Both the position numbers and the translations under genes were made by a program. This document shows positions 14,331-59,468 of a DNA stretch of 64,000 nt, one piece after another (positions within the stretch are counted from its first letter, which is position 1; the number at the start of each line of letters is the position of its first letter). Under the pieces are notes generated by a model. That model was not told where the DNA came from and ran no database searches. It saw only the letters and a list, made by a program, of their open reading frames with translations. The stretch is from Hyperoplus lanceolatus (taxonomy: Eukaryota; Chordata; Actinopteri; Uranoscopiformes; Ammodytidae), in assembly GCA_026929865.2 (NCBI GenBank), contig CM049416.1:10016001-10080000 (forward strand), written 5' to 3'.

Positions 14331-14810
14331 TTACTTGCAGGTGAAAACTTCAGATTTCTCACTGCAGGTGTTGCACTTGACAAAGCAGCACCAGTGGAAC
14401 TTGCAGTTGCACTGCCAGATGCGCGTGTAGTGATGTGTGTCGTAACCTCGGCCGCAGCACATCAGATTACAACTGTCCGTGTGGTTCGATGTGCCGTTGC
14501 ACAGTCTGCCCCGTGTTCCTGTGCTCCCTGTGGCTGTGTCCTCCTCGCAGTAGTTTGGTGAGCGCTCCAGGTACACCAGGTCCGTGTCTGTGGGCTTCTG
14601 GTAGCCGCGGGCCTCTTTGAGTCGCAGGAAGGAGGGTTGGCGGAGCCGCGAGGCCCTGACCGACTCCACTTGGACCGCGTCGCTGTAGCGTTCCTTCAGA
14701 AAGTAACCGATCTCTCTGAACTTTGGCAGGGTGATCCAGCAGGTCTTAGTGGTGCAGGAACCAGAAACGCCGTGACACTTGCACTCCAACTTCATCCTCT
14801 CCTCCAGGAT
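14331..14810 (-). CDS. wnt7b: wnt7b exon 4 (terminal coding exon)
   Basis: The acceptor TTGTGATCAG precedes it. It begins [17 protein letters not shown] and runs to VFTCK and TAA (14333-14331). It carries the acylated serine and the C-terminal cysteine-rich domain. Confidence 0.98.
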
Positions 14811-17800
14811 CTGATCACAAAAAGAGTAGAAGTTAGGTCTATATGAATTAAAAGATAAAGTTCATCATATTCTGTGTGATTTAAAAGTACTCAGTTAAAG
14901 TATATCCAATGCATAAATGGTCATTTTAAATTCACTTCCAGTGTTTGAATATGAAACAGTTAATAACAATCACATAGAATTCAAATCCGTCTCTTTTGGT
15001 AAGCGGGTCTTTCTGCTGACACTTCATCTTTCCGCACACCAACCACTATGCCAACTTTATGTCAAAAACCTAGGGGAAATAACTCATACCCCAAGACTGT
15101 AGTCTCTTATTAACTTTACCTTTCTTTCAGACCACATAATGGCGTGACAGCCCGAGAAAACTGACCAGAGCTGTTGTGCAACCATACACGTTTAGAATTA
15201 CATTGTGGTTTGAGCCCCGATTTGTTTTTTTAAGGCCATACAAATATTCCCTGAAGGCAAATTGACAGGTGACTGATGTTGCCCTTGTGAAAGAGCAAGT
15301 ATGACTTTAGAGCGACTCGGCCCTCAATTATAACTTCTTGTTAGTTGTTTGCCCATAGCACATGTCAAATGAGTGACTTCCCCTTCACAGCTATCACATT
15401 CTGGGAAGAGTTTGCGCTTCACTTTGGTTGCTTCAGTGTGTGCGGTGGTGAATAAGTGTGGTCTTTGCTGCTGCCACTGAGAAAAAGAAAGGAGGAGAGA
15501 GTCTTGCAATGATATCCTCTATCCACACTTAATGCCGACTAATTAAATGAATGGACTGTGGGGCTATGGCTCAACTCCATCTTGGCAGCTATATCGGCCA
15601 AGTTTTGCATTCCTGTCACACTCACACTCACAATTGCATGAAAACCCACTAGTGCACAGGAGCTTTTGTGCAATCATTTCTGCACTTGTACAATTTAATG
15701 CTGATGCATTTATAGTAACTGATGCAACTGCACAACAAATAACTATCAGCTGGAAAGTCAGCCATTTTCATCTCCCTACATAATAAATAATGTATCTTTA
15801 CTGGAGGATAGATGGATACTTAATTGATCCTGAAAGAAATTCTGATATCCAGTAGCAGCATACATACATTTTCACAACCCCCCCCCCACCCCCACCCAGC
15901 GTCATTAATGATATTAAATAACTGTAGAAATCTTTTTTTTTAAACTTGCAGAAAGAGTACTAAAATGTTTAATTGACACATTGAAATACTAAATTAAGCC
16001 TGGCAAAGGAGAAATAATTACTTTAGCATGTTTTTCATCCGTAAACCCCAAAACTAAATTTGATGGATTAGTTAAATACATTTGTCCTAAGTGGGACAAA
16101 TTTAATTTGTTCTTGTTACCTTTCGCCCTGCCTCATTGTTGTGCAGATTCATCAGCCGACGGGCATTTTTCTTGATCTCACGGGCATCTACAAAGCGCCG
16201 CGAGAACTCCACGCCGTACTTTACATCAGCCGAGCAGCCCCCCCACTTCCAGCCTTCCTCTTGGTCGTGGTAGCCCTGCTTTTCGCGGTCACAGCCACAC
16301 TGGCTGAGGTTGCCTTGGCTGCAGGCGGTAGTCACTGCGTGGGCCACTCCCGCTGCGGTGATGGCATATGTGAACGCCGCCTCCCTGCTGCCTAAAGAGA
16401 AAATAACAGAATTGGAGTTAATATAAGTCATAGACAAAGGTAGTCAAAAGTAGCACGTTTCAAGCAATACCACACTTGAGGAACCAAAAATTATGATGGT
16501 GTAACAGTGCAACAATCTAATCGGAGGTATAGAGAGACGACCATCAAGGACACGCTGCACACATCCAAGCAGTCCTAAGAAGAGGTTAAATTAGTGAAAA
16601 CACCTTTGTAGGATTCAGAGGGTCTGTAAACTGTCTGGGGGCACCAAGTAGCCAAATGGTTTAGGCCCATATAGAGTAAGTATGTATTGTCAAGTATCTG
16701 CACTACAACTAGGAGATCTATTCAGCTTTACTTAGTATTGTATTAGGCAGATTGAAGTCCTAGAGATCAGCCTCAGTATAAAGAGCATTAGTCTCATAAT
16801 AACTCAGATTTTCCTGTCTTGTTTAATATCTCTTATCTGCGTCTGTAGACACTGAGTTAGAACAATAATCAGTACAGTGAAGAAAACACAAGTGACATCT
16901 ACTGGCTGACTAGAGGAAGAGGCTTTTTTTTCTGGAATCGGCATCCATAGAGCTGCTGTGTCTTTATGTTTTTCATCAATGTAATTTCTCACGCGGCTTA
17001 AGTGTCATATTGCGTCTTTCTCGGGCGGTTTACATTCGTGCTGCAAATGATACCGCTATGTTGCATGTTGAAATAATCTGTGGCCAAGCTTGACTGAGGT
17101 GTGCCCCTTTTCCTAGCTTTTTGTATGTCACTATTTAAGCTTCAGAATAAACACATTTGTGTTTATGGCACGGAGGGGGGAAATGAATTCATTGGCACTA
17201 CAATTGGTAATAGGATATGCTGTCCTATAATCAGGATAATGCTGGGCCTCGGTTCTGCTCAGCAGCCCAGAGTATTAATGCATGGCGTCTCTGGTAGAGG
17301 CGATTCTAATGGCTCCCTTCCAACCTGACAAACTCACTCGCAGAAACCGTCGGGTCTGCGGTTCCCCCGGTCCATAACTCATAACAAACTCTGAAGTCCT
17401 CTCTCATCAGGCTAAATCCGCTACCCATTCAGATGCATTGTATTGTGAGCCTTTCTCAAGGCATCAGGCGCATGCAATAGCCAAGCAGCCATCTCCTCGC
17501 ACCGTGATTTGTTTTGATTGTAAGGCAGTGCATGCAGGGTTCCATTGTTGCCATCCAGCTGCTGGAGCTGACTCCAATTAGTGGTTAGCATGAGTCTCCC
17601 TGGTCTTTCTCAACGCTCAAATGAAGTGGTGGATGGTTCATTAGAGGCTCAAGGGGAAGGGGGGGTGGAGGGGTGATGCCCATGGTACACATTTCCCTTT
17701 TTAAAAATGGACATAAAGAAATTAAAGGAAATCTGACAAGCTCTTGTGTTTTCACATTAATCAACAGTCAAATGAGTTGTTATACAGATCTAATAAAATC

Positions 17801-23654: not shown

Positions 23655-23900
23655 AGCAAATCAAACTTTATTTCTTAAGCACATATTCTGAACAAGGAAT
23701 GTGACACAATGCACTTTTAAAAAACACACTAAAACACATTAAAAAAAAGCAGCGCATACAAAACACATTTAAAGGCGATATTGAAAAAAGGATGATTATG
23801 ATTTTGCTTAAAACTTTCCTTAGTTTCAGCCATTCTGAGGCTCTCTGGCAGGGTGTTTCACAGTCTGGGGGCATAATAACGGAAGGCTCTCCATGCTCCC
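23655..23900 (-). repeat. Decayed retroelement tail interrupted by the Mutator-like MITE
   Basis: The stretch AATCAAACTTTATTTCTTAA followed by an A-rich segment resembles the reverse complement of a common fish retroelement 3' end. It is cut by the MITE at 23901 and resumes at 24508. The family is uncertain. Confidence 0.35.
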
Positions 23901-24498
23901 TAGCCTGGCTCCGCCCGCCTACCTACTTCCGCCCAAATTTCATTTTCCCTTCAGTAGTCAGTCTGGTGGTGGGGCGTATTAGTGAGATTTTTCCGAACAG
24001 ATTTCTGAGTATCCAATCAGCGAACAGAAGAAGTGGCTGAGAACGATGAGGGTCGAAGTCGCGCTCCAGTTTCAGTTGAATGCTGCGTTCCCTTACGCTC
24101 GGAACTCGGACACTTCCGACTTGTTAGTTCCGAGTTCCGACCTGTCTGTGTTCCAGTGCATCTGCTCGGGAAAGTATGGACGCCTACAACCTTTCACATC
24201 CAAATAACTAAACGTTAGGCTCTAGCAAGTTACCGTTGCCAGGTACCGGTAGATCCATAGACTACAATATGTAGTGAAGTCGGAAATTTCCGAGTTCCCT
24301 GAACGCACCGTCAACAGCCGGCTCACGACCAAACGTTATGCGATTGGTTGGATAATCCAGAGTGGCACTGCGCAGATCCAATAGTTTTAAACTTCAACAG
24401 ACACCCGCCTCCAAGTGAGTGAACGTTTGCCAATTACAGCACTTCCAGACCTTCTGTACAAATGAAATGAAGTATGATGGTCTGGTAGCGCCAGGCTA
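23901..24498 (+). mobile_element. Mutator-like MITE, copy 1 (598 bp)
   Basis: The element starts TAGCCTGGCTCC and ends GGCGCCAGGCTA-like (AGCGCCAGGCTA), giving short terminal inverted repeats TAGCCTGGC/GCCAGGCTA. It is flanked by a perfect 9-bp duplication, CATGCTCCC (23892-23900 and 24499-24507). A 9-bp duplication points to the Mutator (MULE) superfamily. Inside is an imperfect inverted repeat around the CGGAACTCGG and TTCCGAGTTCC segments. There is no transposase, so it is non-autonomous. It differs from copy 3 at only 7 positions by eye. Confidence 0.88.
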
Positions 24499-24555
24499 CA
24501 TGCTCCCTGCTTGTTGTCAAAATAACTTTTTGTCAGAATCTGAATATTTCCTTAA

Positions 24556-32582: not shown

Positions 32583-33085
32583 TACCCAGGGGGCAAAGTG
32601 ATTTTATGGACATGGAGCGTTGTAAAAGGTTGTTCACCAAAAATGACATCTAGGACCTTCCACGATCACAACCTGGGTGGACAACCTTGTCAACAAGCTG
32701 CTGGTAAGCTACAGTGGGCCAACATAGCAAATCAGAACCACTGACGTGAATGGGGGTGAATGGGGATGGGCTAATGGGGAATTATTTAAACTTATAGATA
32801 TCATTATGAAACTTTGCCAGTTGATTACTGACATTAAAACAAAACTTTTTGTATTACAGTATTTTCAAAAATGTTTAAAGAAATATGAAAAATCATCAAT
32901 ATCTTACTAATGATGCGAAAATGTGTATATCTGCAAAGCCCCAAAATCTAGATGTTGGAAGAAAACCAAGTCAATTTGTTTTTAAATTTTGAACACAAAT
33001 TAAGTGTCCAACTGCCTGAAGCCTTTCCTAATCACAGTTCAAATTTGATCAATAACCCATAGAAAATACATGTTTTACACAGTTA
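32583..33085 (+). repeat. Foldback element, left arm
   Basis: Pairs with 34326-34826 in inverted orientation. The inner end (GATCAATAACCCATAGAAAA) is an exact match over ~21 bases to the reverse complement of the right arm. Confidence 0.85.
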
Positions 33086-33091
33086 CATTTC

Positions 33092-34250
33092 ACTACAAAT
33101 GGTGTGCCGCAAGGTTCTGTCTTAGGACCAACTCTCTTTACCTTCTATATAAATAAGGTGGGCCAAAATATTAATGCATCCGTACATCTTTATGCTGACG
33201 ACACCGTTGTCTATTGTTGTGCATCTTCTGTTGGCCAGGTGTTCACTGACTTGCTGTCTGCTTTTGACACCATTCAGGCGCAATTATTTCAACTAAGGCT
33301 AGTTCTAAATGCAGGTAAAACCAAGATGATGTTCTTTTCTAATAAAAGGAATGTACCTGCTGTTCTACCCTGTATTATGTCTGCTCAGGGTATTCCATTT
33401 GAGTCTGTGGCCACTTACAAATATCTAGGCATTACAGTGGATGATAGCCTTTCTTTTAAATGTCATGTTGACCAATTACTGAAGAAATTGAGGTTAAAGC
33501 TGGGGTTTTTCTTCAGAAATAGAGCCTGTTACTCTTTTAAAGCCAGAAAACGTATTGTTGCGGCCACTTTCTTGCCACTCCTGGATTATGGGGATGTTGT
33601 ATATATGAATGCCTCTGCTCACTCCCTGCAACTGCTGGATGCCGCATATCACGGGGCCTTGAGATTCATAACTGATTGTAAACCCCTCACACATCACTGT
33701 ACATTGTACTCTCTCACAAACTGGTCTTCACTTTCCATGCGCAGAACCACTCACTGGTATCTTTTTATCTATAAATCCATTATCGGACTGCTCCCCTCTT
33801 ATTTGTCAATGTATCTGGCACGGAAACAGTCCGATCACAGCCTCCGGTCCCTGGACTTCATCTCATTTGCCATCCCGTCAGTCCGTACTGAACTGGGCAA
33901 GAAGGCATTTTCCTACGCTGCGCCTGCAACCTGGAACAAGCTCCAGCAGAGACTGAAGCTGTCCAGTCTTATTTCTTTAGGGGATTTTAGACTGCTAGTA
34001 GGAAGGCTGTTGAGACAGTCCGTGGGGGTCTGCACTTGTACATAACTTAACTTGTACTTAACTTGTTCTTTGCCCTTTGTACTGCGTTATTTTACCGTTT
34101 GTGTTCTGTGTTGTGTCTCCTGTATGTTTAGTTAGTCTGTAACTTTGTGTTGCTGCTGATGCCTACCTGAACAGGTCTCTCTTGTAAATGAGACCCTGGG
34201 TCTCAATGAGATTTTACCTGTATAAATAAAGTTAATAAATTAATAAATGT
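33092..34250 (+). mobile_element. 5'-truncated LINE with RT catalytic core, inside the foldback loop
   Basis: An uninterrupted frame from about 33098 to 34045 encodes the C-terminal reverse transcriptase of a jockey-superfamily non-LTR retrotransposon. It shows NGVPQGSVLGP, the catalytic YADDT about 20 residues later, LVLNAGKTKMMF, YKYLGITVDD, LLDYGDVVYM and SVRTELGKKAF. Endonuclease and N-terminal parts are missing. The 3' end folds (GAGACCCTGGGTCTC, about 34191-34205) and finishes in ATAAATAAAG and TAA-rich repeats near 34247. It is related to the LINE at 2.0-3.1 kb but better preserved. Its 5' junction sits right at the inner edge of the left foldback arm. Confidence 0.92.
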
Positions 34251-34325
34251 GCCATGGACCAAAAGTGTCCTTTTGGAGTCTACAGCTGGTATTATAGGAA
34301 ACGGCTAGACATTCCCTTGGAAAAA

Positions 34326-34826
34326 ACAGTGTAAAAAATAAATTTTCTATGGGTTATTGATCAAATTTGAACTGTGATTAGGAAAGGCTTCAGGCAGTTG
34401 GACACTTGTTTTGTTTTAAAAATAAATTGACTTTGTTTTTGTCCAACATCTAGATTTTGGGGTTTTGCAGATATGCAAATGTACACATCATTAGTAAGAT
34501 ATTGATGATTTTTCATATTTATTCAAACCTTTTGGAAAATACTGTAATACAAAAAGTTATTGTTTTAATGTCAGTAATCAACTTGTAAAGTTTCATAATG
34601 ATATATATAAGTTTAAAAAATTCCCTATTAGCCCACCCCCATTCGCTTAAACAGTGGTTCTGATTTGCTCTATGTCGGCCCACTGTAGCTTTCCAGCAGC
34701 TTGTTGACAAAGTTGTCCACCCAGGTTGTGATCGTGGAAGGTCCTGGATATAATTTCTGGTGAACAACCTTTTACAATGCTCCATGTCTGTTTTTCAAAA
34801 AAAAAAGGGGTTTTGCCCCCTAGGTA
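34326..34826 (-). repeat. Foldback element, right arm
   Basis: Inverted copy of 32583-33085 with scattered substitutions and small indels. Its outer end is GCCCCCTAGGTAT, next to an AT-rich flank. Confidence 0.85.
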
Positions 34827-41520: not shown

Positions 41521-41769
41521 GGGGCGTTTCTTGGTTTCCAAAACATCCGGGGCTTAGCCCAAGAGGGAATAGGGTAGTGTGCGTGCGGTAAATTTTTGGT
41601 ATACTTTATTGCGCATGCACATTTTTTCACCTAAATAAACAAAATAGGCAGGTAATTATAGCTTTAAATAGCTACCTGACTGCTGCTTATCCCCAAACAT
41701 TTAAGGTTCCATTCAAGTTATTTCATAGTAAAATGAATAAGAGTGAGACAGACCTTACATTACCCATAT

Positions 41770-42470
41770 CAGGGGTGTCAAACAAATTTTCACAAAGGGC
41801 CACTCTACGATAAGATAATCACACTAAGGGACGACATGGAATTTACTGACATGCCTTCTTTTCAATCCAAAAAGTAAAAACAACATACCTATGAATATAT
41901 ATTGTATACGACCTGTGTACAGGGTCAAAGGCTAGGTTTCATTTCAACATTTAGGGGGACAAATTATAGTTGGGAGGTATGGGGGAGCTTCCCCCGAAAT
42001 TTTTGGGCGTCATACACTTAATTTCCTGCATTCTGGTGGATTTTTATTCATCTATCTGTGCCTTTTCTGCATCAATTTATAGTGGAAATATATTTTTTTT
42101 CTTTCTTCCCAAAGAAACAATTATAATGGAATATAATGCAGTAAGGCTCTCAGGCATCCTGGATTTTTCAAAACTTTCTGCACATTCAAAACATATCACA
42201 TGTGTTGGGTATTTCGTTTTTAGGAATCAACACCAGTGTTAACTATTTATGACACTTTACATTGGTAATGAAATGACAGCCACCATTGGAAATGAAAAGG
42301 GTGGGCAGCTAGCTAACGTAAGCTAGTTAGCTAAATTGTAACTTAAGGCAAAAGTTGGAAACAAATCATGTTAGCTTTCATCCTTAGACACTTGACAGAA
42401 TCAATCATCAATATTAGCATGCTATTTAGCCTCATAGATTAGCCTATTTACAGCCCACAGAAAACGGACA
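41770..42470 (+). mobile_element. Partial copy of the CAGGGGTGTC hAT-like element
   Basis: Starts CAGGGGTGTCAAAC and matches the complete copy at 45617-46604 over most of its length, including CTGCATTCTGGTGGATTTTT and the AATCATCAATATTAGCATGC stretch. The right terminus is missing. It lies within other repeat-like sequence (from 41521, with GATCCGGGGC motifs at about 41545 and 42521) that I cannot assign. Confidence 0.65.
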
Positions 42471-42599
42471 TATTTTCTTAAAATTTTTTTTTACAAAAAA
42501 GATTCAGGGCTAATCAAATTAGATCCGGGGCTTTAGCCCCGAATAAAACAGCCTAGTGCAAGTTCTTTCGGTGTAGTTTTAAAATACCCACATCAAGAA

Positions 42600-45577: not shown

Positions 45578-45616
45578 GTAAATATTTGAATATAGTAGAG
45601 TTTTAATGTTGTAGCT

Positions 45617-46604
45617 CAGGGGTGTCAAACTCATTTTCACAAAGGGCCACTCTACGATGTGATAATCACACTAAGGGCCAGACAGACATACCTTATTTTT
45701 AATCGAAAAATAAAAAGAACATATTTTAGTAAGTATATAAAGTGCGTACAATGGCTAGTTTTCGCTTCAACATTTTCGGGGGACAAATTATAGGTGGGGG
45801 GTATGGGAGTGCTCTCCCCAAATTTTTTTAATGTCAAATACTTTATTTCCTGCATTCTGGTGGATTTTTATCCACCGATCTGTGCCTTTTCGGCATCAAT
45901 TTATGGTGGAAATGTCTTAATTTTTATGAAGGAAAAGACAACATTCAGGTTCCTGGTGAAACAATGATAAAGGACTATAATGCAGTAAGGCTCTCAGGCA
46001 TTCTGGATTGAGCCACAATATTTATTCTCCTGGATTTTTCAAAACTTTCTGCACATTCAAAACACATCACTTGTTTTTTTTTTTTAAGGAATCATGACGC
46101 AGCACCAGTGTTAGCTATTTCTGACACTTTACATTGGAAATGAAATGCCAAGCCACCATTGGGAACGAAAGGGGTGGGCTATCAGCAGCTAGCTAACGTT
46201 AGCTAGTTGGTTATATTGTAACTTAAAGCAAAAGTTAGAAACCAGATAATTTTGGCATTAATCCTTAGACACTTGACACAATCAATCATCAATATTAGCA
46301 TGCTATTTAGCCACATAGATTGGCCTATTTACTGCCCTCAGAAAACTGACAGCTCTTCTTAGATGCAAGTTCATCAATTCATGGCTTAAAATCCTGAGCT
46401 GTGGAACTTTCAGCAGACATTCCTAGCTGTAAGCCACGTAAGTTTCCTAACAGTTGGGAGCGTATGCAACGTGCGGATATGGCACAGGCTCCATGAAGAT
46501 TATTATTATTTTTTTTTTTTGTCAGAATTGATTCAAATCAGTCGAATTGATTCACGGGCCAGATCAAAACGTGTCGCCCGCGGGCCATGAGTTTGACACA
46601 TGTG
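45617..46604. mobile_element. hAT-like MITE, CAGGGGTGTC family (988 bp)
   Basis: Starts CAGGGGTGTCAAACTCAT and ends ATGAGTTTGACACATGTG, an imperfect 18-bp inverted repeat. A perfect 8-bp duplication TTGTAGCT flanks it (45609-45616 and 46605-46612). GGGCC motifs near both ends match a widespread vertebrate MITE type. Non-autonomous. Confidence 0.85.
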
Positions 46605-46809
46605 TTGTAGCTGATCTGGATGCCCCTAGACTTAATGACTAGGGCTGCACCAATGTATCTACTGGACATCGGTATTGGCCTATGTCCGCCCTATTAACAT
46701 TGGCCCATTTGCGAATAAGGTGAAACCTGCCGATGGTAGTATGAATTTGCATTAATCCTTCACTGTTGTCTTAATTGTTCTGACTCATTCAGGATCTGGG
46801 ATGCCTTAA

Positions 46810-47761
46810 CCCATTGATGACTATGGCAATCTAGGATGCATGTCCTTAATGCCTCAAGGTTTTCTGAAAAAATACTACGAATTGTCAACGTCTACCAAAA
46901 CCTTAATATCTAAGCCTGTGTAGCACATAGAGACATGAAATAAAATACATTTAAAAGGTAAGGTTCACAGGTTTTATTTAAACATGCGCTTACAAACAAA
47001 CACATTTTTCTAAAAATCGTCAAAATTAGATGGGGGAGAAAATAAATAAATAAATGATATAAAATATTTAGAAATAATGTGCTAAATGAGGTTATAATCC
47101 TGCTCCCTTTAAGCATGGAAAGTAGTGACTGAGTGTGCATTGGAGAAATAAAGGTAGACAGATAGAGGAAGGAAGAGATAGCTTTACTTTATAATTTAGT
47201 TCAGTTATCACTGGTACCATAAATTCGACTTCCCAGTACAACTGGAACGCAGAATGACTCCCGCTGTCGGGAGCCGATCAGCTGGTCCAAACAGCTGTAT
47301 ACCACGGAGATGAAAACGAAACTGAAACTTAACTATCGCCTGGCTGGGCTTAATTTGAGTTGGAGCAGCAAAATATAGCCTAAATTCCTAAATATTGTTA
47401 ATAAATAAATGGAATGTGATTTGTGATTTTCGTCAGTAGCCTTATGTAGACCTAGATTCTGCGCTCCGAACGCCACTAACTGTTCTGTAATGCACTATCG
47501 CGACACAGTCGGCTTATTTTTTAATTTTAATTTTTTATTATATATTTTTTTAATCAACGTGATTTTCGGCAAACCACACAACATTTGGGTGGTCACATGG
47601 TCTTAAAAAATCAACAAAACCCACCTCATGTGTATTTGAACCAATGACAGTGCATTCTATGCTGCGCGCGCCATGAAAATTAGATATAACAACAATGCTG
47701 CGCTACGCAGCAGCCGGCAGGAGATACAATGTTGCGTCGCGCAGCAGCCGGCATCAATGGG
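46810..47761 (+). mobile_element. piggyBac-like element, copy 1 (952 bp, uninterrupted)
   Basis: The ends CCCATTGATGAC and GGCATCAATGGG form an inverted repeat directly flanked by TTAA (46806-46809 and 47762-47765), the piggyBac target. No transposase frame is present. It corresponds base for base to copy 2 at 54838-56402, apart from the MITE insertion in copy 2, with roughly 6% differences over the first 140 bases by eye. Confidence 0.82.
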
Positions 47762-47774
47762 TTAATACAAGTTA

Positions 47775-48551: not shown

Positions 48552-49154
48552 GTTGCATACCATTAAGGCTAAGTCCTTGTTGCATTGTGACTCTGGCCCA
48601 GGCGTTTACTGCAAGTATTTGCATCATTAGTTGTACTGAAAAACTAAATATACGTCTATTTATTTTTCTACCTAACACTGATAGCAAATAATGTAGAAAT
48701 GTCAAATGAATATATAGTAGAAAAAAATCGTCTTGTAATTGTCTTAAACTGCTCCAACCAAAGGCATGGTTGATAAAATATCTGAACTGAGTTTACTTGA
48801 GGTAAAAACAGGCAACAATAAAAACCAGGCATGTAGGGGATATGTCAAACTGTTCCAAAAGGGAATCAGGCAAAAGGCAGGGTCCAAAAAGCAGGCAGAA
48901 CTAGAAACCCAAGGCAGGTAGAGACAATCTTGGATCCTGAAGGCAGAAGCAAACTGGACGATCTGGTGGGGAATGATTGGAAGTGAGTTGTCCAACGGTT
49001 TTGCTCTGTGCGCCCACGTCCGTCAACACCCACCGGCTCCGTTTTCAAAGCAGGCACGCTGAACAGTTGGAGTCGCGAGACAGAGGAGTTCCCGCGGTAA
49101 TAAAAGTGACGGGCGATCGCTCTTGATAATATGATTCTCCTATATGGTATTTAC
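48552..49154. other. Unassigned repeat-like sequence
   Basis: Around 48840-48980, sequence such as GGCAGGTAGAGACAATC and GATCTGGTGGGGAATGATTG loosely resembles 57340-57450. It may be part of an old interspersed element, possibly retroviral-like, into which the following hAT elements inserted. Too weak to define. Confidence 0.25.
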
Positions 49155-51217
49155 TAGGGCTGTCAAGCGATTAAAAAAATTGATCTAATTAATTACAGGT
49201 AGGGCTGGGCGATATGGCCAAAAATCAATATCTCGATATTTTTTTACTTTATCTCGATACACGATATATATCTCGATATATTTCAAATCTCCTCTAGAGC
49301 ACATCCTAAATGCTCAATTTAATTTATTTTTTGCATAACAACACACCAGTAATATGATTTAAATAGTCCTGCAAAATGTGTCTGCACTAACGATGCATTA
49401 GGCTACATGAAACAATATCTTGTTTATATTCTTTAGTGCTTTTTATTGGAACAATTTGAAACTTGCACATGGCAAAGAGTTTGCACATTGTATTGATTAT
49501 TCCACATCCTTCCACTCCCATACAATGGATCCAGCATTATTTTATTTGGAAACAGTTTTTTCCATCTTCTGTTAATCTGTAAACTGAGAACACTAATTAT
49601 GACTCATTACAACCACTTACTAATTGTTCATCACCACTAACCCCCTGAAGATAGCAGCCACACTTTAAATGCAGAACAGGTTTTGCTCCATAATAGTAGT
49701 ACAAAAGGCTCTAAAATGTATAATGGTTACTGTCGCTTTAAGAGCAGTTAAGTTTCGTTTTCTGCCTGTTAGTCCGAGAGAGAGATTCATGCGAGCGCAA
49801 ACAGGTGGCTCATTGTCCCTCTGTTACCTGCCTTATTATTTAATTCTCCTGTATTGAGTTCATGAAAATAAAACTGGAAGACAATCAGAGGATTGTAACA
49901 CAGATTGTCAAGCGCCCGCCTCCCACGTTCTTTCGCCTGTGTATCCACCAGCCTTCCTCTCATAAGGACCAGGGCAGGCAGTGCTGTGTACAGCGGCCGC
50001 TAATGCTGGCATGTGCGCCCGCCTCCCCCGGTCGTTTGCCTGTGTAGCCTTCTTCTCATAAGCATGGTCCTACAAAAACGGTCCATGCAATGAACGACGG
50101 CCACCATCGCCGTCATGCGTGCCCCCCTCCACCCGCTCGTTCGGCTGTCATAAGAGCACAAGAGCCCTCGTCTTTTTTTCTCCCTATCTCGTTGTTTTCA
50201 CATGGCGATAAAAGCATGGCACACAGGGCGCAGGCGCACTGCAGACTACGTCACAGGTGCGCGCTCAGGATACTCTGGTTGGGAGGGGTGAGTGAGTGAG
50301 TTGCCAATTCATGTGGGTCTGTGAGGCAGAGAGCCACAGGAAAGAGCGAGAGAAGCGAACACCAGCGAGTTTGCCGCTGGCGGCGGCGGCAGCAAAAAAA
50401 ACACATTACGTGCCAATTTGTATTCGATGGTCGCGATAGGGTCATTTTATACATCCCGAAGAGCACATCTCGCGATACATCGAATATATTCGATATATCG
50501 CCCAGCCCTAATTACAGGCTCTGTGATTAATTAATCTAAATTAATCGCATACTTATATGACACTTTTATACCTGTTTATAAACAGCTGTATAGCCTGCTA
50601 CAGTTTGTTTCTCTCTCTCTCGCGCGCACGCGCTTGCTCGCTCTCTGTCTCTCGTAACTTCTGTCTCCTCCCCTCAGCCAGCTTTATACATGAACTAGCG
50701 CAGAATTTTCTCAAAAAAACAAGCAGACTAAATGACGACTTTCCATCTCCCACAACAGACAGCGCTGCACTGCCACCATTTCGTAGCCTACTCATAGGCA
50801 AACATATTGAGACACACACACGGGGCGGGTGGTTTATGCGAGAAAGCTAGCAAACAAAATTTGAGGAAGATTAAGAGATAGGCCTACTGTTTTGAACCTA
50901 GCCTACATTGTTGCACCCACAAATCAATAATGCACAGACACTGCGGAGAATTAAGTAAGATGTCTTCCTACCTTCATGCTTATTTGCCGAAGCATCCCAT
51001 AAACCGTCCATAGAGCCCTCGAGTCAGCCCCTTTCCCCTGCTTCTCTCCTTATTCTCCCTTTTACCCGCGCGCCAGCTATAGGTGCAGCTCCGCACCACT
51101 TTTGCACCGGGTCAAAGGGCATTATAGAAGTGCGATTAATCTGCGTTAATTTTTTTAATCGCGTTAATTTTTCTGTGATTAATTAATCGAAATTAACGCG
51201 TTAATTTGACAGCCCTA
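49155..51217. mobile_element. hAT-like element, TAGGGCTGTCAA family, with nested hAT-like MITE
   Basis: The ends TAGGGCTGTCAAGCGATTAA and the inverted TTAATTTGACAGCCCTA are flanked by a perfect 8-bp duplication GTATTTAC (49147-49154 and 51218-51225). Subterminal ATTAATTAATC and AATTAACGCG motifs repeat. A second element occupies 49200-50510, leaving ~750 native bases and no transposase frame. Confidence 0.88.
49200..50510. mobile_element. hAT-like MITE, TAGGGCTGGGCGATA family, copy 1 (1311 bp)
   Basis: The ends TAGGGCTGGGCGATATGG and the inverted CGATATATCGCCCAGCCCTA are flanked by a perfect 8-bp duplication ATTACAGG (49192-49199 and 50511-50518). AT-rich subterminal TATCTCGATA repeats lie inside the left end. 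It sits only 45 bases inside the left end of its host element. Confidence 0.9.
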
Positions 51218-51801
51218 GTATTTACACAACAACGAACGCACGGAAGGTTATTGTTCCCATCCGAACAAGTAAAAGAACAGTGGACATGCTTGTATGTGTT
51301 TCTGTTTTGAGATTGTTTCCTGCAGTGAACACCGAGTGTCTTATTTTCAGAGGTGGGTCGTAAAGCGCTACATTTACTCCATTACAAATACTTGAGTAAC
51401 TTTTTGAATAAATTGTAATTTTAGGAGTAGTTTTATTGCAACATACTTTTACTTTTACTTGAGTAAATATTTGAAGAAAGAACAGTACTTTTACGCCGTT
51501 CCATTGGGCTACGTGACAGTCGTTACCTTATTTTTTTATATATTTTATTTATTACATGCGAGAGCTATTTCTCTCATGATTTCTCTCCCCGGGGACGTCT
51601 TCAGCCAACATCTCTATCACATGACTATTTCAACCAATAAAAAACACATTACAAAAGCTTGCCAATAAAATGCAGCCACTTCAGTCACATGACAAGTGTT
51701 GTCATGTTGTCATAGGGCTCAACCATGGACTCAACAATGTCCGCGGACTTTTTTAAAGGCTGCGGTTCCGCACCGATGTTGTGTCCGTGGCCGTGCCATG
51801 T

Positions 51802-52417
51802 TAGCCTGGTCTAACCAGACCATCGTACTTCATTTCATTTGTACAGAAGGTCTGGAACTGCTGTAATTGGCAAACGTTCACTCACTTGGAGGCGGGTGTC
51901 TGTCGAAGTTTAAAACTATTGGATCTGCCCAGTGCCACTCTGGATTAGCCAACCAATCGCATCACGTTTGGTCATCACGTGTGTCATGAGCCGGCTTTTG
52001 ACGGTGCGTTCCAGTTGGACATGGAACTCGGAAATTTCCGACTTCACTACATATTGTAGTCTATGAATCTACCGGTACCTGGCAACAGTAACTTGTTAGA
52101 GCCTAACGTTTAGTTATTTGGACGAGAAAGGTTTTAGGCGTCCTTACTTTCGCGAGCAGATGCACTGGAACACAGACAGGTCGGAACTCGGAACTACCAA
52201 GTCGGAAATCTCCTTCTTCCGAGTATAAAGGAACGCAGCATTCAACTGAAACTGGAGCTCGACTTCGACGTCATCGTTCTCAGCCACTCGCTCTGTTCGC
52301 TGATTGGACGATTGTAGATTCTCTGGAGAATCTGGGAAATGCGCTGTACACCCAGACTGACTACTGAAGGGAAAAAGAAATTTGGCCGGAAGTAGGCGGG
52401 CGGGCGGAGCCAGGCTA
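51802..52417 (-). mobile_element. Mutator-like MITE, copy 2 (616 bp, inverted)
   Basis: The same family as 23901-24498 in opposite orientation, TAGCCTGG to CCAGGCTA. It is flanked by GTGCCATGT and GTGCTATGT, a 9-bp duplication with one mismatch. It is clearly more diverged than copies 1 and 3, so it is probably an older insertion. Confidence 0.87.
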
Positions 52418-52936
52418 GTGCTATGTAGGTTAAACGCATATTTTACCGACTATCTGGGTGAGTCGAGAAAATGGAAGAAACCTCTGATTCCGAGGAGCAA
52501 TAGCCACACCCCTGGCCTCAAATACAAACTCACACACTCGCAAGCTCTCAATCTCTCAATCACACTAATTCACAAAATAACAATCACACAATCACAGTGA
52601 CACAGACTCCCACACACTCGCAATTACAGAGAAACTGTTCTTCTTTGACACATGTCCTGTTCTCCCTGTAGCCTACTCACTTCGCATGCCCCAGTCTGGC
52701 TGTGTGAGAGTCTGAGAGTGGTCTCTTTGTTCAGCCACTCTGTAGTTTCATATGTTAAGTGAGTGTGCCAGCAGGTTTTGATGTGTAACGAAGTTTAATT
52801 TTGTGTGTTTTATATTTTTGGGGCTAAACCCAACCTAGATAATTTTCTCAGGGCCAGTGACATATTGTAGGAATTTGTTTTAAAATGTGTATGTGCAAAA
52901 CAATTGCAACAGTGTTATAAGTGTATTGGTTTTAAT

Positions 52937-54449
52937 CAGTAGCGTACCGTGGGGTTTCAGTCAGGGCCTTCAGTAGCGAACTACAATCCCCCCCCCCCCC
53001 AAACACTGAGAAACGCACACGTCAGGTGCCGATACAGTCAACACAGCCACATACAAAATATAGGCTAAAAGTCGGCTATATATAGGCTAGTCTACACACT
53101 AATGCATAACATGAAGCGCTTGACTGTTGATCTTCAATAACCACAGAGCAGCGCACTGCACACACCACTGTTGTTTATCCCACACCAGATAGACTACTTC
53201 ACCATCACCATCAGCTATTTCATGTCACTCGACAACTGTTTGCAAACACATAACACGTTACAAAACAAGCATCCAGTTATTGTAATAGGGTTCACCGGAT
53301 GCTTGCGCAACTTCAACGGATTCAATTTAGTATAGCGACAATATTACCAGTGCGCCACATTCGCTTCAATAACAAAAATGAAACATGCAAGGAGGGTCTT
53401 TTATGCCGAATATTTTACAACAGTCAATCCAACCAGCATATTAAGAAGAAGTGTAGTTGAGAGTTGGTTCCCATATTATGCTTAGAAAGCGGCATCAACA
53501 ATGAAAAACCGCATCACCTACTGCCCAAGTCCCAGCAATATAGGCTAGAACGACCATAACAAACAAACAAAATGGTTTTAAAACCCCACAAAAAACGTTA
53601 TCTCTTCACAGATAGACACAGCCAAAAGTAACACTCACCCATCACTTGTAGAGGAAACCCATCCTCGGATCCTATAAGCCATTAAGGCTGTTAAAATCCG
53701 TGATGTGCCATGTTCCTTCACTGGTTTAAAAAGCAGACACGGCCAGCCACATACCGGTAACTTGTTCCGCTCGGTGCTAACTGTTAGCCAGTCATAGCGT
53801 CGTAGTTACAGTCAGTGAAGTGCTGCAAAAAAACGTTGTCAGCCCATCCAGCTTATATGTAGCATTCCTTTGGAAACTATATTTCATTTCATTTCATTTA
53901 ACTATGTTAAACAATCACCTTTAAATAGCCACGCTAGATCGGCAACGGGATGAGTAGGTTGTGTGAAAGCGATGGCCATAGTAGTTCACTCACACCACAA
54001 TGCTAATTGTCCCGCCGAAGTTTCAAACTTCGCTGATGACATCACGGGGGACTAGCGGCTGAGATATCGCTGGGCCCTGGGGGCGGGCTGTCACTACACA
54101 TCAGAATCTGATTGGCTGATGAGACCTGTCAGTCAAAGTTATCATCCAATAGGAGACGGCAGCTTCAATGAAAGGCTAGCAATATTTCTAGTGCAGGTCC
54201 TGCTGCTCCACATAGCTGTGATGCGTTTAGATGAGGATATGCCTGGGAAATCCAGCTCAGCCTCACAAAAAATAACTATGTTCCAAAAAAAATGTAATTA
54301 TTATTGTAACATACTTTTTTTTTTTATTAAATTCATACACATTTAAACACAAATTATTATAATTTTAAACAACAACAAAAAAAATATATTATTTGGATTT
54401 TGACAGGGCCAGCAGAGAAGGCCCTGCTGGCCCTGACGGCCCACCACTG
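52937..54449. mobile_element. Nested hAT-like element, CAGTRGCGTACC family (1513 bp)
   Basis: The left end CAGTAGCGTACCGTGGGG and the right end CCCACCACTG (reverse complement CAGTGGTGGGCCGTCAGGGC) form an imperfect inverted repeat, with CAGGGCC motifs inside both. A perfect 8-bp duplication GTTTTAAT flanks it (52929-52936 and 54450-54457). A C12-13 run lies near 52988-53000. No intact transposase. Confidence 0.87.
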
Positions 54450-54837
54450 GTTTTAATTAATATAGTTTTGGACAAGCCTAATTTATTATCATTTTATTTG
54501 AAGGGTGATGTATTTAATTTGGCAGATAATTAATTTATTATTTTTTGAGTTCAAGGGTTATTCATTTGATTTTTAAATACCTTATTTATGGTTTTATTTA
54601 AAATTATGTTATTTAACATATCTTTATTTGAACATTGCTGTTTTATATTATGTTCGTGTCTATTCTGTACCGTTTGTGTTGCTCTGTATATTTCAAAAAT
54701 AAATCCGGAGTAATTCAGTAGGCCTACTTGTACTCTTGAGTACTTGAGTAGTCTTTTCACTGCATACTTTTTTACTCTTACTTGAGTAATAATTTTTATG
54801 AGTACTTTTACTTCTACTTGAGTAATTATAATCTTAA

Positions 54838-56402
54838 CCCATTGATGACTATGGCAATCTAGGATGCATGTCCTTAATGCCTGAGGGTTTTCTGAAAAAA
54901 TAGTATGAATTGTAAAGTCTACCAAAACCTTAATATCTAAGCCTGTGTAGCACATAGAAACATGAAATAAAATACATTTAAAGTTTAAGGTTCACATGTT
55001 TTATTTAAACATGCTCCCTTAGCGCTTACAAACCAACACATTTTTCTAAAAATCGTCAAAATTAGATGGGGGAGAAAAAAATTAATAAATAATATAAAAT
55101 ATTTAAAAATAATGTGCTAAACGAGGTTATAATCCTGCTTCCTTTTAGCATGGATAGTAGTGACTGAGTGTGCAGTGGAGGGATAAAGATAGACAGATAT
55201 AGGAAGGAGAAGATAGCTTTATTTTATTATTTAGTTCAGTTATCACTGGCACCATAAATCCGACTTCCCAGTACAACTGGAACGCAGACTGACTCCTGCT
55301 GTCGGCAGCCGATCAGCTGGTCCAAACGGCTGTATACCACGGAGATGAAAACGAAACTGAAACTTAATTATCACCTGGCTGGGCTGAATTTGAGTTGGAG
55401 CAGCAAAATATTAGCCTGGCTCCGCCCGCCTACCTACTTCCGCCCAAATTTCATTTTCCCTTCAGTAGTCAGTCTGGTGGTGGGGCGTATTAGTGAGATT
55501 TTTCCGAACAGATTTCTGAGTATCCAATCAGCGAACAGAAGAAGTGGCTGAGAACGATGTGGGTCGAAGTCGCGTTCCAGTTTCAATTGAATGCTGCGTT
55601 CCCTTACGCTCGGAACTCGGAAACTTCCGACTTGTTAGTTCCGAGTTCCGACCTGTCTGTGTTCCAGTGCATCTGCTCGGGAAAGTATGGACGCCTACAA
55701 CCTTTCACATCCAAAAAACTAAACGTTAGGCTCTAGCAAGTTACCGTTGCCAGGTACCGGTAGATCCATAGACTACAATATGTAGTGAAGTCGGAAATTT
55801 CCGAGTTCCCTGAACGCACCGTCAACAGCCGGCTCACGACCAAACGTTATGCGATTGGTTGGATAATCCAGAGTGGCACTGCGCAGATCCAATAGTTTTA
55901 AACTTCAACAGACACCCGCCTCCAAGTGACTGAACGTTTGCCAATTACAGCACTTCCAGACCTTCTGTACAAATGAAATGAAGTACGATGGTCTGGTAGC
56001 GCCAGGCTAGCAAAATATAGCCTAAATTCATAAATATTGTTAATAAATAGATGCAATGTGTTGTGTGATTTTCGTCAGTAGCCTATAGTAGACCTTGATT
56101 CTGCGCTCCGAACGCCACTAACTGTTCTGTAATACACTATCGCCGACACAGCTGGCGTATTTTTTTTTATTATTATTTATTTATTAATTTTTTGATTGGC
56201 ATGATTTTTGGCAAACCACAAATTTTTTGGTTGGTCACGTGGTCTTAAAAATCAACAAAACCCACCTCATGTGTATTTGAACCAATGACGGTGCATTCTA
56301 TGTTGCGCACGCCATGAAAATTAGATAAAGTTACAATGCTGCACAACGCAGCATCAGGCAGGAGATACAATGTGGCATCGCGCAGCAGCTGTCATCAATG
56401 GG
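54838..56402 (+). mobile_element. piggyBac-like element, copy 2, interrupted by a Mutator-like MITE
   Basis: The same family and orientation as 46810-47761. CCCATTGATGAC and GTCATCAATGGG ends are flanked by TTAA (54834-54837 and 56403-56406). After removing the 598-bp MITE and one 9-bp duplication, its length is 958 bp, agreeing with 952 bp for copy 1. Confidence 0.88.
55412..56009 (+). mobile_element. Mutator-like MITE, copy 3 (598 bp)
   Basis: The same length as copy 1 and 7 substitutions from it by eye (about 99% identical). A perfect 9-bp duplication GCAAAATAT (55403-55411 and 56010-56018) flanks it. The undisturbed piggyBac-like copy 1 has a single GCAAAATAT at the matching place (about 47373-47381), so the insertion and its duplication are confirmed inside this window. 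Confidence 0.94.
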
Positions 56403-56469
56403 TTAAAGTAACTTACTTTTACTTGAGTACATTTTTTGGCTACTCTGCCCACCTCTGCTTATTTTGAAA

Positions 56470-58201: not shown

Positions 58202-58499
58202 GTGTGCAGGTAACCCCATGATGTTAGGAGGTGATGGAAAATGGCCAAAACACAGCGGTTACTGCGGGAAAGATGGGAGTAACAGGATGTAAAATTACAG
58301 GAGATTTAATACTGCATGAATGAAACCCCGAATTTGATAGGACTAGTTTAGTGGAAGTCCAGTAGGCGTGCCTCAGATGGATCAGTGTCCAGATGTGCTA
58401 GTGAGAGCCATCCTCAGGCTCCTACTAATCTCTCAGTTGGAGAAGAGCAATAGGACAATAAGCCCTCCATGACTTCCAAGGGCCTTATGTAGGGCTGGG

Positions 58500-59460
58500 C
58501 GATATGGACCAAATCTTATATCACGATATAGGTAATTTTATATCACGATATGGATATATATCACAATATAGTATTTTTCCTTAAAATTCAATGCATTACA
58601 ATAACCGTACTGAACTTTAATCACATTAGATTATTTTCATCTTTTGCTTGGAACTTAAATTTCCATACAAAATACCACACCAGCCTGGCTTTAGTCAGTC
58701 AGCGCAAAATAAAAATGACAGCATCAACCAAAGAGCCTACATTTTCCTATTGATAGTAGCCTACATCAAAATAATGAAAGACTTGAATTTTCCTGCAGTA
58801 TATGCTCATCTTCATTTAAAAAAGCTGTCAAAATTAAGTAATGAGCAAATGTCTGGTACTACTTTAACTCCAGCGTCAACACAAATAATATTTTCAAGTT
58901 TGACATGTTTTAAAGTTACATAAAACCAGCCTTGCTGGCTGTCTCCAACAATAACAGCACGGGGGTGAAGCCCCGAGTAGGCTAAAGATGTCATTATTAG
59001 CCAGCTAGCTCACGAGAGCTAACCCATGTAGTTTGCGGCTTATAACAAGCCAACTCTGCGTCACGGCAACAGCACGCTGAAGCAGCAAGCAAGTTTCCTT
59101 TGCCTGATGACATTTTTGACTGTTAAAACCAGCTGCTCTGCCACCGTGACACGGAGTTGGTTTAACTGTAAAGTGACGGCGCACCGGAGCTAGACAGCTA
59201 GAGCAACAGATGAGGCTTCTTCTGTTGCGGGTTGAGAAGCTGTATTGCAGCCCAGACCTCTGCTGCAGAGCCCCCGTGTGGCGCGGCGGTGTAACTGCAG
59301 TGTAACTGTAGGGACTCGGAGGGACAGCTGCCTCCCGCTCCATCTATGCTCCCGCCACATGAACTTTTTTTCTCTGCGATATAAACGGTATGGCAAAATC
59401 TCTCCCGGTAGACACTTTCATATCGTCCACGATATGATATCGTCATATCGCCCAGCCCTA
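58500..59460. mobile_element. hAT-like MITE, TAGGGCTGGGCGATA family, copy 2 (961 bp)
   Basis: The ends TAGGGCTGGGCGATATGG and the inverted CATATCGCCCAGCCCTA are flanked by a perfect 8-bp duplication GCCTTATG (58492-58499 and 59461-59468). It shares termini and ATATCACGATA-type subterminal motifs with 49200-50510, but the interiors differ. Confidence 0.9.
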
Positions 59461-59468
59461 GCCTTATG

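Follow-up and report, generated by a model that had tools for sequence, protein, structure and literature searches.

Nested DNA transposons in a 64-kb window of the Hyperoplus lanceolatus genome: five insertions with a partly readable order

Repeats that lie inside one another can be the record of successive transposon insertions or the parts of a single larger unit, and positions 51340 to 56465 of a stretch of Hyperoplus lanceolatus DNA (contig CM049416.1, 10,016,001 to 10,080,000; hereafter the window, 64,000 nucleotides) raise the question of which of these is present and how much of its history can be read. Five DNA elements are found there within approximately 5 kb. An outer hAT element holds a miniature inverted-repeat transposable element (MITE1), a second hAT (hAT2) and a piggyBac-like element, and another MITE (MITE2) lies inside the last of these, such that the outer hAT has received three direct hits, one of which was itself struck again. 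The conclusion reached here, with a probability of about 0.97, is that this stack was formed by five independent insertions of non-autonomous DNA transposons through cut-and-paste transposition.

The anatomy of cut-and-paste movement is present in each layer, as terminal inverted repeats (TIRs) and a target site duplication (TSD) of fixed length, and an intact pre-insertion site was recovered within the same genome for each of the four inner layers. A check of terminal repeats and duplications located all five elements and their boundaries where the first-pass annotation of the window had placed them, and the nested arrangement that it described is borne out by the pre-insertion sites in other copies (Table 1). 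Its further statement that every boundary carries the expected duplication holds for all five insertions, with one of the nine bases mismatched at MITE1. Since the empty MITE1 site in other copies of the outer hAT reads GTGCCATGT, it is most likely that the right-hand copy of this duplication mutated after the insertion.

Table 1. Coordinates and termini of the five stacked elements and of related copies elsewhere in the window
Feature	Position	Strand	Length	TSD	TIR or ends	Remarks
Outer hAT, non-autonomous, Tol2-like	51348..56457	+	1395 bp net of inserts, each counted with one TSD copy	CTTATTTT, 8 bp, exact (51340-51347 and 56458-56465)	CAGAGGTGGG, 10/10 matching	
MITE1, in outer hAT	51802..52417	+	616 bp	GTGCCATGT (51793-51801) / GTGCTATGT (52418-52426), 8/9 bases agree		
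hAT2, non-autonomous hAT, in outer hAT	52937..54449	+	1513 bp	GTTTTAAT, 8 bp, exact (52929-52936 and 54450-54457)	CAGTAGCGTACC / CAGTGGTGGGCC	
piggyBac-like element, in outer hAT	54838..56402	+	958 bp without MITE2 and one TSD copy	TTAA (54834-54837 and 56403-56406)	CCCATTGATGAC, 12/12 matching	
MITE2, in piggyBac-like element	55412..56009	-	598 bp	GCAAAATAT, exact (55403-55411 and 56010-56018)		
Second piggyBac-like copy	46806..47765	+		TTAA on either side	one TIR mismatch between ends	MITE2 site empty, single GCAAAATAT
Third MITE copy with TSD	23892..24507 (element 23901-24498)	-		CATGCTCCC, exact		98.8% identical to MITE2

Copies of the outer hAT, hAT2 and MITE families were sought in 806.7 Mb of the genome in 527 contigs, where the window is C22:10016001-10080000. 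The query for the outer hAT was its 510-bp middle part, which gave 335 first-look candidates. Forty of these were scored, among them the window, and 29 of the 39 other places were loaded with 1.5-kb flanks. When the parts of the outer element were compared with these 29 loci by BLAST, left, mid1, mid2 and right were found to be consecutive, except where a copy lacks an end or carries a private insert. All 29 have an empty MITE1 site, with a single exact GTGCCATGT in 28 of them and a small local duplication at the site in the other (L038). Every one of the 28 copies that span the hAT2 site (all but L019) has it empty and exact, as is the piggyBac site, with its single TTAA, in all 27 spanning copies (all but L018 and L019). 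The empty site of MITE2 is carried by the second piggyBac-like copy in the window. In the loaded loci no two layers recur jointly at the same site.

The two similar MITEs, lying inverted within one element, give the stack a superficially composite look, as would be expected of a single transposon family in which the outer element regularly carries the inner pieces and moves with them as a unit. This is contradicted by the other copies of the outer hAT, because the sites of MITE1, hAT2 and the piggyBac-like element are empty in them, and the MITE and hAT2 are also found elsewhere with duplications of their own; such a composite family is extremely improbable. The same pair of MITEs, which are approximately 3 kb apart and share about 86% identity in BLAST (89% when only ungapped columns are counted), could instead have recombined and inverted the segment between them, in which case the present order of the layers would be a rearranged one. 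However, the duplications on the two sides of either MITE match each other, where a single inversion would have exchanged the half-sites, and mid1 and mid2 have the same order and orientation as in the other outer copies. There is next to no likelihood of an inversion having shaped the stack, and five separate insertions are the reading adopted.

A different matter is the order of these insertions, which the first-pass annotation took to be directly readable, with the MITE at 55412 as the last event. Nesting does place the outer hAT before MITE1, hAT2 and the piggyBac-like element, and the piggyBac-like element before MITE2, but the remainder is unordered. MITE1, hAT2 and the piggyBac-like element are siblings without a readable order, and MITE2 has none relative to MITE1 or hAT2. 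That MITE2 came last does not follow, because MITE1 or hAT2 may be later and nesting sets no bound between either of them and MITE2. By a hand count, 12 orders are compatible with the nesting and MITE2 is final in 6 of these, or half if all are equally likely. The divergences lean the same way, with MITE2 differing from its subfamily consensus at 5 of 598 positions, MITE1 from its consensus at 11 of 616, and the outer hAT at 17 of 1387. However, none of four contrasts among MITE1, MITE2 and the outer copy is significant (Fisher p 0.21 for MITE2 vs MITE1 and 0.64 for the outer copy vs MITE2), such that the divergences of the two MITEs are inseparable. Private changes number 3 in 598 for MITE2, 5 in 616 for MITE1 and 15 in 1486 for hAT2, counted against differing copy numbers, and all of these figures are rough in that the references are the closest copies only. 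The chances that MITE2 was the final insertion into a genuine stack are about even.

Inferring the relative ages of elements from their nesting is a standard approach, as in REANNOTATE (PMC2672092, in the portion cited), and the stack is one further instance of it. The divergence of the outer copy from its family consensus is approximately 1.2%, as compared to a median of 1.8% in the others (range 1.0-3.3%, n=16). Because the four later insertions lie inside this copy, they fall within the span of that 1.2% change. The hAT2 of the stack has 50 differences from consensus in 1486 positions, and this larger divergence probably reflects a subfamily that it has in common with one other locus (L061).

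Outside the stack, the families of the inner layers show the same duplications. The hAT2 query gave 254 candidates, of which 40 were scored; 19 other loci were loaded, 13 of them with full-length copies of 1431-1500 bp, and in these 13 the 8-bp TSD is perfect in 12 and has one mismatch in the other. No pieces of the outer hAT or of the piggyBac-like element are present within the 1.5-kb flanks of the 19 loci, and a MITE copy is near hAT2 at one of them (L066). The two MITE queries produced 2,960 and 2,899 first-look candidates, with 40 scored each; the first query also contained outer-hAT sequence, and the two candidate sets may overlap. The family has TAGCCTGG...CCAGGCTA ends and a 9-bp TSD, and MITE1 and MITE2 belong to different subfamilies of it, in opposite orientation. 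For MITE1 there are 7 other full-length copies, 96.8-99.0% identical, with a TSD that is perfect in 4 and has one mismatch in 3. For MITE2 there are 19 other copies, one of them the third MITE in the window; their TSD is perfect in 17 and has one mismatch in 2. The loaded MITE copies sit elsewhere, each with its own TSD. An internally deleted copy of this family is also present in another outer hAT, at a different site (L035:2175-2548), with TATCACGTG on both sides.

Two datings suggested by divergence were rejected. On the basis of the window only, the 11% that separates MITE1 from MITE2 would make MITE1 much the older, but since MITE1 has copies in the genome at 97-99% identity this gap is a divergence of subfamilies. 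Likewise, the two piggyBac-like copies have 84 differences in 948 aligned positions (9%), which cannot be the age of an insertion, because the outer hAT that hosts one of them is itself only 1.2% from its consensus.

Matches of this kind are rare by chance in DNA of this composition, based on comparison of the 64-kb window with order-1 Markov resampling in 2-kb blocks. A scan for an 8-bp TSD with a 12-bp TIR (up to 2 mismatches) returned 13 matches against a mean of 0.77 in 30 resamplings. Three of these are palindromes in the inverted MITE pair, three belong to an unrelated inverted repeat at 33-34 kb, four correspond to elements, among them the outer hAT, and the last three are chance-like. 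The 9-bp scan returned 2 matches against 0.13 (30 resamplings). For TTAA there were 4 matches against 0.08 in 100 resamplings; two are the piggyBac-like copies, one falls within the inverted MITE pair and one within the inverted repeat at 33-34 kb. A scan for 8-bp duplications with CAG...CTG ends found just the two hATs against 0.06 (100 resamplings), with thresholds set in knowledge of the ends of hAT2. Divergence of its TIR kept hAT2 out of the strict 8-bp results, just as the mutated TSD kept MITE1 out of those of the exact 9-bp search.

The assignment of the outer element to the hAT superfamily is based on its 8-bp TSD, on a short TIR that has CAG ends, and on repeats found subterminally on either side. 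There are six copies of ACTTGAGTA, two on the left side and four on the right, and this sequence has zero further occurrences in the rest of the window on either strand. Across the family, 22 of the 24 copies with both ends have the 8-bp TSD, perfect in 18 and with one mismatch in 4, the other five of the 29 being without an end. The terminal CAGAGGTG, the 8-bp TSD and the subterminal repeats are shared with Tol2 of medaka and Tgf2 of goldfish, whose ends are borne by primers and a probe printed in the cited parts of PMC4818426 and PMC4890040. Unlike these transposons, the outer hAT measures approximately 1.4 kb and lacks a long open frame, and its direct match to the printed ends covers the first 8 bases only. 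The designation Tol2-like therefore refers solely to ends, subterminal repeats and duplication. hAT2 likewise has the 8-bp TSD and CAG...CTG ends of a hAT, and as a dispersed family it resembles other non-autonomous hATs with CAGT ends.

The piggyBac-like element has a TTAA target, as does the second copy in the window, and a TIR that starts with CCC. More specifically, the TIR of the stacked copy begins with CCCAT, which is one of four 5' motifs named for piggyBac in the cited part of PMC10813416. It differs from the superfamily at large in its 958-bp size and lack of a long open frame, two copies having been examined.

The superfamily of the MITEs is less straightforward. They had been called Mutator-like, a label for which the 9-bp duplication was the one ground, and this was not borne out; the associated count of three superfamilies is likewise conditional on it. 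The 9-bp TSD of MITE1 and MITE2 does fall in the 8-11 bp range of Mutator-like elements (MULEs), but the long TIRs that are typical of these, although not universal, are absent from both. According to the portion of PMC6446971 cited here, MULE TIRs are commonly hundreds of base pairs long and TIR-less MULEs have also been described. The terminal match of the MITEs is 8-9 bp, against the usual hundreds, and no transposase is present in the stacked copies. The same survey judged the MuDR entries of vertebrates to be mis-identified. The Mutator label is unproven because of this short match, the lack of a long open frame in the stack and the doubt of the survey. In the cited part of a review of actinopterygian transposable elements (PMC7599744), Mutator is among the DNA transposons in general and is absent from the sentence that lists the actinopterygian superfamilies. 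MITE1 and MITE2 would better be called an unclassified 9-bp-TSD MITE.

No open frame of at least 150 amino acids is present anywhere in the stack, and Pfam, at E values up to 1, gave no match for eight peptides of 56-111 amino acids. Three of these were from among the ten outer-element peptides, four were from hAT2, and one was from among the seven of the stacked piggyBac-like copy; a non-autonomous outer hAT is expected to be without a transposase. On these grounds, movement of the layers in trans is presumed. Rfam (at the gathering score) and ARAGORN gave no match in the window. A scan for additional inserted elements (duplication of 2-6 bp, TIR of 14 bp) was likewise negative; it covered six stretches belonging to the outer hAT, to hAT2 and to the piggyBac-like element.

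Several observations weigh against five cut-and-paste insertions. Two of the 24 outer-hAT copies with both ends (L020 and L032) are without a matching 8-bp duplication, the piggyBac-like family is known here from two copies in one window, and the terminal match of the 9-bp-TSD MITE is short. The Pfam scan took 8 of the 32 listed stack peptides, none of them from the MITEs, and no autonomous partner turned up for any layer, with no genome-wide search for transposases behind this result.

Three direct hits on one outer hAT are not in themselves exceptional. Five of the 29 other copies contain clear private inserts longer than 100 bp (L010, L020, L025, L033 and L035), and the interrupted copies rise to 10 of 29 if the five with a missing end are added. 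Because these loci were selected by similarity to the uninterrupted middle part, copies broken in that part are under-represented. The resulting rate of approximately 0.17-0.35 inserts per copy predicts 0.25 to 1.77 copies with at least three direct inserts among 335, these being candidates rather than confirmed copies, and the triple insertion is therefore unremarkable. Real as the nest is, it amounts to ordinary transposon nesting.

Other repeats are present in the window. A second nest is located 114 bp upstream of the stack (49147-51225), with an outer element that has an 8-bp TSD GTATTTAC and TIR TAGGGCTGTCAA, and an inner element at 49192-50518 with TSD ATTACAGG and TIR TAGGGCTGGGCGATAT. 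An element at 58482-59468 has the same TIR as is found in this upstream nest and TSD GCCTTATG. The inverted repeat at 32609-34788 has arms of approximately 475 bp that are 88.5% alike, and between them is an open frame that encodes a reverse transcriptase domain (33056-34045, PF00078, E=4e-16). It could, for instance, be a fold-back element that contains a piece of a retroelement. A direct repeat of about 76% identity is formed by 41769-42480 and 45616-46361, and an exon of a wnt gene is on the minus strand at 14331-14861 (PF00110, E=3.7e-61). This exon and the transposon content are in keeping with the DNA of a ray-finned fish.

Taken as a history, a young copy of a Tol2-like hAT family landed first, generating its 8-bp duplication. 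MITE1, hAT2 and the piggyBac-like element then entered it separately, with duplications of 9 bp, 8 bp and TTAA and in a mutual order that nesting does not reveal, and MITE2, of the same family as MITE1, entered the piggyBac-like element. Each layer was presumably mobilised in trans by transposases encoded elsewhere in the genome.

The stack offers a clear case study in the nesting of DNA transposons, in that the empty site of every inner layer is found in one genome, and it illustrates both what nesting can and what it cannot tell about the order of insertions. It also shows that the divergence between two MITE copies in one window can reflect the age of subfamilies rather than of insertions. 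It also raises the question of which transposase mobilises MITEs of this 9-bp-TSD family in a vertebrate. Abundant and recently active, with best-scored copies 97-99% identical, the family might be moved by a transposase that has so far gone unrecognised in vertebrates, although this is an unlikely outcome. Candidates for such a transposase may be a genuine vertebrate Mutator lineage, which was not found by one survey in the part cited above, or another superfamily that generates 9-bp duplications.

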